This document shows positions 56,168 through 57,776 of a DNA stretch of 64,000 nt, piece by piece. A program made the translations under genes and the position numbers. A model generated the notes under the pieces. It had not been told where the DNA came from, did not search any database, and saw nothing but the letters and a program-made list of their open reading frames with translations. Origin of the DNA: Thermodesulfobacteriota bacterium (GTDB taxonomy: Bacteria > Desulfobacterota_D > UBA1144 > Nemesobacterales > CSP1-2); the NCBI GenBank assembly GCA_035559815.1, contig DATMAT010000008.1, positions 62,001-126,000 of the forward strand. The letters are read 5' to 3'. Every line of letters starts with the position of its first letter. Position 1 is the first letter of the stretch.

Positions 56168-56245
56168 GGGGCCGTAGTTCAGCCTGGTTAGAACGCTGGC
56201 CTGTCAAGCCAGAGGTCGCGGGTTCAAGTCCCGTCGGCCCCGCCA
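56168..56245 (+). tRNA. tRNA-Asp (anticodon GTC)
   Basis: Acceptor stem GGGGCCG/CGGCCCC, D arm GTTCAGCCTGGTTAGAAC, anticodon stem CTGGC/GCCAG with loop CTGTCAA, T arm CGGGTTCAAGTCCCG. CCA encoded. Confidence 0.96.
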
Positions 56246-56470
56246 GTTATGCATGTTATAGTTAGTTGCGCACCGAATAAAAAATTAAGGTGAAAATTGC
56301 AGTATTTGTTTTTTTGCCTCCTGATGACTCTTGGTATCTCACTTTCGTGGCCGGAAGTCGGCATTCCCCCTGGCTCGTAAGCATGGCATTAGGTACTTAT
56401 AAGCCCACAAATTAGATAGTTTTTGAAGTTTCCATTTTTTGTCTACTAATTCATATCCCTCATTCTTCAC

Positions 56471-56487
56471 CTGACAAAATTTGTTAG
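56471..56487. promoter_or_regulatory. Distal palindrome upstream of the sigma-54 promoter
   Basis: CTGACAAAATTTGTTAG, a 17-bp dyad with one mismatched pair, about 60-80 bp upstream of the -24 element. This is a normal place for an enhancer-binding activator site; its identity is inferred. Confidence 0.4.
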
Positions 56488-56518
56488 AAATCACATTGAA
56501 AAATTTAAAAAGCCTAGC

Positions 56519-56538
56519 GATTGTAAGAAGTTACAATC
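56519..56538. promoter_or_regulatory. Proximal perfect palindrome next to the sigma-54 promoter
   Basis: GATTGTAA-GAAG-TTACAATC: perfect 8-bp arms, ten bases upstream of the -24 box. Its position suggests a repressor or activator site controlling the downstream signalling operon, possibly with the weaker dyad at 56471-56487. Confidence 0.5.
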
Positions 56539-56548
56539 TAAATTTCTT

Positions 56549-56564
56549 TGGCATAGTTATTGCA
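56549..56564 (+). promoter_or_regulatory. Sigma-54 (-24/-12) promoter of the signalling operon
   Basis: TGGCATAGTTATTGCA: GG at 56550-56551 and GC at 56562-56563 with exactly ten bases between, matching TGGCAC-N5-TTGCA in all strongly conserved positions. It sits 25 bases before the start codon at 56589. Sigma-54 promoters need an ATP-hydrolysing enhancer-binding protein, which is not encoded in the visible part. Confidence 0.75.
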
Positions 56565-56588
56565 CCTTAGTAGGTAGGTGATTTTCTA

Positions 56589-57776
56589 ATGCGTATTCTG
56601 GTAGTTGATGACGAGAAAGAGGCAAGAACGCTCCTTGGTAAGACACTAACAAGGTTAGACCATGAGGTGGTCGAGGCGGCCAGCGGAATAGAAGCATGGG
56701 ATATTCTGGAGAGAGAGGGGATCAGTTTTGTTATAAGTGACTGGATGATGCCAAGAATGAATGGTCTAGAATTGTGTAGGCGAGTAAGGGCCGCCAAGTT
56801 TGAAAATTACATATATTTTATTCTGCTAACAGCAAAGGATAACAAGAATGAGTTGATAGAAGGTATGAAAGCCGGTGCTGACGACTTCATAGTAAAACCT
56901 TTTAATGCGGGGGAACTTGATGTTCGAATAAGAGCGGGCGAACGTGTCTTAAGGCTGGAAAGAGAACTGGAAGAGCGTAACAAAAAACTCATTTATGCAT
57001 ACGACAAGATTAGAACTGACCTAGAAGCCGCGGCTAATATGCAAAAAAGCCTACTTCCGGTCTCGGCCATGACCATATCGTGCTTAAGGTTTGACTGGAT
57101 ATTTTGTCCCTGCAGTTTTGTGGCTGGAGATATTTTTGGGCTTTTCGAGCTTGACGAAAATCACGTCGGTTTCTATTTGCTCGACGTCGCCGGTCATGGT
57201 GTTCCTGCAGCAATGCAGTCCGTTACCTTGAATAAATTGTTGTCATCTATAGCCACCAGAAATAACATGTGGTATCGCAATGCGAGTAATGCTAATAATT
57301 TTGACTTAACTTCACCATCGATGGTAATTCGAGAACTAAATAGACGTTTTCAATCTGATGATGCCATGCAGTATTTCACCATGGTTTATGGAGTGACTGA
57401 CGTTAGGGATGGCCGGACCAAACTGGTCCAAGCTGGTCATCCTTCTCCACTTTATCAAGAAAAGGAAGGAAAGGTAACGCTACTAGGAACGGGAGGGCTT
57501 CCAGTAGGGATGATTCCACATGTAGAGCATGAGGAGCATGAGTTTTATTTTGGTCCTGGAGACAGACTATTTCTTTATTGCGACGGTATAACGGAGTGCC
57601 ACAACGGTAAGAGTACGGATCAGTTCTCAGTAGAGCGCCTGGTGAGGTTGGTAGAGGGATGGAGAAGCCTTCCTCTGAAGGAATTAATGAAGGGGATTGA
57701 ACAGAAACTTCGCCTTTGGAGAGGTAGTGAAGAGTTTGAAGATGATATAACGCTCTTAGCGATAGAAAGGACCTGA
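56589..57776 (+). CDS. Response regulator with PP2C-type serine phosphatase output (RsbU/SpoIIE-like)
   Basis: 395 residues. The N-terminal receiver domain (RILVVDDEKEARTLL; phosphoacceptor D51 in VISDWMMP; K in VKPF) is followed by a coiled-coil segment (about 120-150) with the typical phosphatase lead-in AAANMQKSLLP. The PPM phosphatase domain then shows metal-binding aspartates in VAGDIFG, LDVAGHGVPAAM and YCDGITE, and the end EDDITLLAIER. It would dephosphorylate a STAS antagonist once its receiver is phosphorylated. It is first in the operon behind the sigma-54 promoter, and a STAS gene lies at the other end. Confidence 0.93.
   Translation: MRILVVDDEKEARTLLGKTLTRLDHEVVEAASGIEAWDILEREGISFVISDWMMPRMNGLELCRRVRAAKFENYIYFILLTAKDNKNELIEGMKAGADDFIVKPFNAGELDVRIRAGERVLRLERELEERNKKLIYAYDKIRTDLEAAANMQKSLLPVSAMTISCLRFDWIFCPCSFVAGDIFGLFELDENHVGFYLLDVAGHGVPAAMQSVTLNKLLSSIATRNNMWYRNASNANNFDLTSPSMVIRELNRRFQSDDAMQYFTMVYGVTDVRDGRTKLVQAGHPSPLYQEKEGKVTLLGTGGLPVGMIPHVEHEEHEFYFGPGDRLFLYCDGITECHNGKSTDQFSVERLVRLVEGWRSLPLKELMKGIEQKLRLWRGSEEFEDDITLLAIERT

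Follow-up and report, generated by a model that had tools for sequence, protein, structure and literature searches.

An eight-gene signalling operon is very probably driven by a sigma-54 promoter together with a distal, imperfect dyad that is predicted to serve as its enhancer. The key switch at this locus is probably this weaker dyad, and not the eye-catching perfect palindrome that lies between it and the promoter; an observation that centred on the palindrome thus leads to a predicted regulon whose enhancer is defined. The features concerned lie in the 64,000-nucleotide stretch of DNA that was analysed, termed the window (Table 1).

Table 1. Position and basis of assignment of features in the window
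Feature	Position	Strand	Basis or remark
Predicted upstream activator (enhancer) dyad CTGACAAAATTTGTTAG	56471..56487	+	recurrence and spacing
IHF-like element CGATTGTAAGAAGTTA (lineage motif TgATttcAgtaaGTTA)	56518..56533	+	ends 15 bases upstream of -24; leave-one-out p 0.046
Perfect dyad GATTGTAA-GAAG-TTACAATC	56519..56538	.	8-base arms, 4-base loop; overlaps IHF-like element
Sigma-54 -24/-12 promoter TGGCATAGTTATTGCA	56549..56564	+	GG-N10-GC, consensus match and genome-wide word count
Expected transcription start	56575	+	12 bases after -12 GC, from sigma-54 geometry
AGGTGA, possible ribosome-binding site in short leader	56576..56581	+	sequence
Response regulator with SpoIIE/PP2C phosphatase domain, 395 aa, RssB/RsbU-like domain order	56589..57776	+	domain scan
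Single-domain response regulator, 157 aa	57846..58319	+	domain scan
Response regulator with GGDEF domain, 338 aa	58413..59429	+	domain scan
MASE3-PAS hybrid histidine kinase, 1327 aa	59483..63466	+	domain scan
Hpt protein, 105 aa	63459..63776	+	domain scan

The promoter and the signalling operon

The original prediction placed a GG-N10-GC promoter just before the first signalling gene, and its letters and coordinates proved exact, with the ATG of that gene at 56589. The promoter word matches 10 of 12 positions of the consensus TGGCAC-N5-TTGCW with exact spacing, a score tied for highest within the window. The genome (3.97 Mb) contains a single rpoN, the gene whose absence had been named as fatal to a sigma-54 reading; as to a bEBP gene, also raised at the outset, the sigma-54 activator domain has 28 matches in the genome, 23 of them strong. 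The pattern TGGCA-N6-TTGCW occurs at 45 places genome-wide, as opposed to 6 for its reversal. By our own sorting, 40 of these words lie outside long open frames and 5 in coding sequence, and in 43 cases an open frame of 60 codons or more begins within 420 bases downstream.

It is very improbable that the -24/-12 word arose by chance, with the operon transcribed from elsewhere. A start predicted from sequence geometry leaves some room for such coincidence, but the excess of words over the reversed control, the enhancer standing at the right distance from the -24/-12 and the failure to find any sigma-70-like promoter in 56240-56620 all argue against it. Overall, rpoN, the activators, the recurrent promoter word and the recurrence of an enhancer at a set distance support the sigma-54 reading, and 56549-56564 is, as judged from its sequence, a genuine and ordinary enhancer-dependent promoter of textbook mechanism. 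The leader of a transcript begun at the expected start (~56575) would comprise ~14 bases and still include the AGGTGA. At 56563-56580 a small hairpin, CACCTTAGTAGGTAGGTG, followed by a T-rich tail, spans the edge of the -12 and the ribosome-binding site, and could mask the latter in transcripts begun farther upstream. Upstream of the promoter lie two tRNA genes, the only returns of a search for an RNA element in the leader, and genes that we take to be homologs of clpP, clpX and lon.

Beyond the end of the window, STAS, DUF4301 and HATPase_c_2 genes continue the run after the Hpt gene (L118:7819-10214). With an RsbW-like HATPase, a STAS and a DUF4301 gene thus added, the operon becomes a partner-switching module, and its eight signalling genes presumably form one transcript; a domain scan of the eight products detected no DNA-binding domain. 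Partner switching of the RsbU/HsbR type employs a response-regulator PP2C phosphatase, a STAS protein and a HATPase, and here too the phosphatase, the STAS protein and the HATPase kinase are encoded together, a likeness at the level of gene content. The operon departs from that type in its sigma-54 promoter and in its additional histidine kinase, Hpt, diguanylate cyclase and DUF4301 genes.

Footprinting by orthologs of the first gene was rejected: one search returned 42 loci, none exceeding 49% identity, and another a single ortholog (48%, with a frame break), in the related genome G007; this nearest ortholog locus is preceded by a weak promoter word, TGGCACATCTTTTGAC, and by no copy of the enhancer. 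There, the response regulator-PP2C gene with its broken frame is followed by STAS and then DUF4301 genes, these two named by their likeness to scanned proteins. The DUF4301 member of the operon thus looks to have been kept in G007 as well.

The distal dyad and its candidate activators

The distal dyad has a 15-mer core (56472-56486) one mismatch from the consensus TGACAAANTTTGTCA, begins 77 bases upstream of the -24 and is centred ~96 bases upstream of the expected transcription start. We derived the consensus after TGACAAAATTTGTCA-like dyads had been noticed at several of the 45 promoter upstream regions. Genome-wide it is found at 34 places (6 at one mismatch and 28 at two), compared with 9 for the reversed pattern. 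All six one-mismatch places have a good -24/-12 in the correct orientation 77-108 bases downstream, as do, at 75-148 bases, 8 of the 17 examined among the 28 two-mismatch places. Conversely counted, the consensus at up to two mismatches accompanies 8 of the 40 strict sigma-54 promoters of the genome, the figure for shuffled promoters being 0.07 of 40. Six genomes of the same family contain 23 enhancer places versus 4 in the reversed control, and in relatives within the order a promoter word stands 87-167 bases downstream at 36 of the 43 places examined out of 55 found. Helical phasing of the enhancer distances is no more than suggestive (R 0.36 for a period of 10.5 bases, from 50 non-independent distances). 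The element thus recurs beyond chance at a set distance from sigma-54 promoters, in the manner of an upstream activator site. This recurrence and spacing, our main finding, bear out the original remark that the weaker dyad stands at a better enhancer distance than the palindrome. A search of the open literature, by letters only, found no paper giving TGACAAANTTTGTCA, nor was the predicted regulon found in the literature searched.

Other arrangements were seen elsewhere in the genome. A second enhancer-like element, TGTAAGA-N3-TCTTACA followed by ATCTGACAC, lies wholly or in part ~60-80 bases upstream of three sigma-54 words (C8:143606 in L010, C50:9690 in L104 and C66:14587 in L110). The words at C50:9455 and C50:9690 (L104) are divergent and 235 bases apart, and at C1:58229 (L004) a perfect dyad with 9-base arms, TCGTTACGATATTTCGTAACGA, occupies the region 115-137 bases upstream of a promoter word.

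Targets of the enhancer-promoter pairing in this genome include, besides the signalling operon, an RpoD/RpoS-like factor of the sigma-70 family (scoring below curated cut-offs), a response regulator-PAS-GGDEF protein, a GGDEF-EAL protein, four large histidine kinases, one of which follows a short first frame, a TPR protein, two type IV pilins and a short unassigned frame at C30:14590. An operon whose genes we take to be pilB, pilT, pilC, pilS and pilR (the pilR product was also domain-scanned) lies behind a copy with two mismatches, and a glycogen phosphorylase gene behind one with three; the enhancer of the signalling operon is hence common to pilins and the pilSR operon. In relatives, many enhancer places read by eye precede pilins, similar sigma factors or signalling genes. 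At C20:61129 (L121), ahead of a TPR protein of 2601 aa or more, a sigma-54 promoter identical to TGGCATAGTTATTGCA at 15 of 16 bases is accompanied by the same enhancer.

PilR sites of Pseudomonas are upstream dyads containing TGTC/GACA at sigma-54 promoters of pilin genes. The present system resembles the PilR-sigma-54 activation of pilA in Pseudomonas, Geobacter and Myxococcus in its pilin sigma-54 promoters, its upstream TGTC/GACA dyads and its PilSR genes next to pilB-pilC. It differs in that the dyad also precedes the sigma-70 factor, the partner-switching operon and, as a three-mismatch copy, the glycogen phosphorylase gene, and in that it persists in relatives where PilR was not found.

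Our first choice for the protein that would bind the enhancer is the NtrC-type regulator C61:16507, with a probability of about one half; PilR comes next, and the remainder falls to another regulator, or to this regulator and PilR together. Its gene adjoins those of a histidine kinase and of what is presumably a prepilin-peptidase-like protein, for which no NCBIfam match was found at 1e-20. Orthologs of the regulator occur in 18 of 59 relatives, and the enhancer is present in 17 of these 18 versus 11 of the 41 others; for PilR the figures are 14 of the 16 relatives with an ortholog versus 14 of the 43 without, relatedness being uncorrected in both cases and these two proteins being the ones covered among the 23 strong activators. 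That PilR (C23:100887, in the pilB operon) binds the enhancer instead of the C61 regulator is somewhat unlikely. The enhancer lies upstream of pilins in many relatives, its two-mismatch copy precedes the operon containing pilSR, and its TGTC/GACA half-sites agree with those of Pseudomonas PilR sites, all of which would suit PilR, but four relatives (G002, G003, G005 and G035), which together hold 20 enhancer copies, yielded no PilR ortholog and all have the C61-type gene. The genome G027 presents four enhancer copies with PilR present and the C61-type gene absent. Further in favour of PilR, GTCT elements are called hallmarks of its sites (PMC6058289). The same study reports regulons of PilR that extend beyond pilA, a further likeness to the present system. 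With the sigma-54 regulome of Desulfovibrio vulgaris, as described in the accessible part of its source, the system shares inverted-repeat activator sites near the promoter (there mostly less than 100 nucleotides away) and a pilus-linked activator (a candidate here, there the dedicated DVU2114); no TGACAAANTTTGTCA-like site was found in that part (PMC4641369).

The perfect palindrome and the IHF-like element

The perfect dyad was likewise described correctly, in letters and coordinates, as having 8-bp arms and ending ten bases before TGGCATAGTTATTGCA. Taken alone, it does not exceed chance: when the 100 bases preceding the -24 were dinucleotide-shuffled, an equally good dyad arose in 5% of trials, and dyads of this size lie within 150 bases of 3 of the 40 sigma-54 promoters of the genome, where 1.5 are expected. 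The genome scan that had been suggested, to look for the palindrome beside other -24/-12 sites, found no copy at up to one mismatch, and a genome-wide operator was ruled out on this ground. Its half-site GATTGTAAGA was also discarded: of 15 places, 3 lie near a good sigma-54 word, this one included, and the remaining two of these are differently arranged.

A second element was recognized when the intervals between enhancer and promoter at 47 promoters were subjected to motif finding. The resulting motif, TgATttcAgtaaGTTA, has a log-likelihood of 154, versus at most 58.8 in 20 shuffles, and its end mostly falls 13-18 or 25-30 bases before the -24 box. Among 31 promoters outside the training set, it has 7 forward matches, all 10-29 bases from the -24, and on the reverse strand of these same control promoters also 7, of which 5 lie within 30 bases of the -24. 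Written as TTTCAG-TAAG-TTA, it agrees with the IHF consensus WATCAR-N4-TTR (PMC7962754) save at the second base. The local sequence CGATTGTAAGAAGTTA, made up of the palindrome's first 15 bases and the base before them, agrees less well with that consensus; it matches the motif at its commonest position, scores only moderately (p 0.046 when excluded from training) and does not have the C that belongs to the IHF core. The genome encodes proteins that resemble IHF alpha, IHF beta and HU; none of these HU/IHF-family members scores at or above its curated cut-off. The arrangement recalls IHF-assisted sigma-54 promoters, in which the DNA is bent at an element that separates activator site and promoter; here the putative element is close to the -24 box, differs at the second consensus base, and would be bound by a protein that is only predicted.

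The original prediction offered the palindrome as a repressor or a bending site, and the two proposals fared differently. Bending, to which we give a little less than an even chance, is the likeliest role and a better guess than repression because the palindrome overlaps, in register, the conserved IHF-like element, a moderate match. Quite possibly, though ranking second, the dyad has no function of its own, as its near-chance frequency at promoters and in shuffles would allow; its overlap with a conserved element at the commonest position of that element argues otherwise. Third, and decidedly unlikely, is an operator at which a repressor of its own, or a second regulator, would block or tune the promoter. 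Perfect 8-base arms immediately upstream of the -24 box would suit such an operator, and the first 12 bases of the palindrome, GATTGTAAGAAG, recur on this contig ~70 bases upstream of another sigma-54 promoter (C8:143682), with 11 of the 12 also at C50:9621. However, at these two places the half-sites are spaced differently or the second half is absent, just one other place in the genome comes within two mismatches of the full palindrome (and differs by two), such dyads are near their chance number at sigma-54 promoters, and none of the operon products matched a DNA-binding domain.

A predicted pilus-linked regulon

In the mechanism that we propose, an NtrC-type activator would bind the distal dyad, and an IHF-type protein would bind the element overlapped by the palindrome; the resulting bend would let the enhancer-bound activator reach sigma-54 polymerase at 56549-56564, from where the eight genes would be transcribed. 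The same enhancer would also drive the type IV pilins, the pilB operon (pilSR included), the sigma-70-family factor and other signalling genes. Since it is common to pilins, the pilB operon, the sigma factor and signalling genes, the operon is best viewed as one target of a pilus-linked regulon.

While the mechanism of the single promoter is that of the textbook, the wider interest lies in this predicted regulon. The enhancer consensus yields testable targets that connect type IV pili with a secondary sigma factor, with partner switching and with c-di-GMP signalling. A further proposal, rather unlikely as it stands, is that a pilus-linked NtrC-type regulator heads a cascade leading from sigma-54 through the partner switch to sigma-70. 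Were this true, the enhancer would switch on pilins, the phosphatase operon, c-di-GMP enzymes and a sigma-70-family factor released by the switch, and the state of the pilus would set a general lifestyle programme in this lineage.
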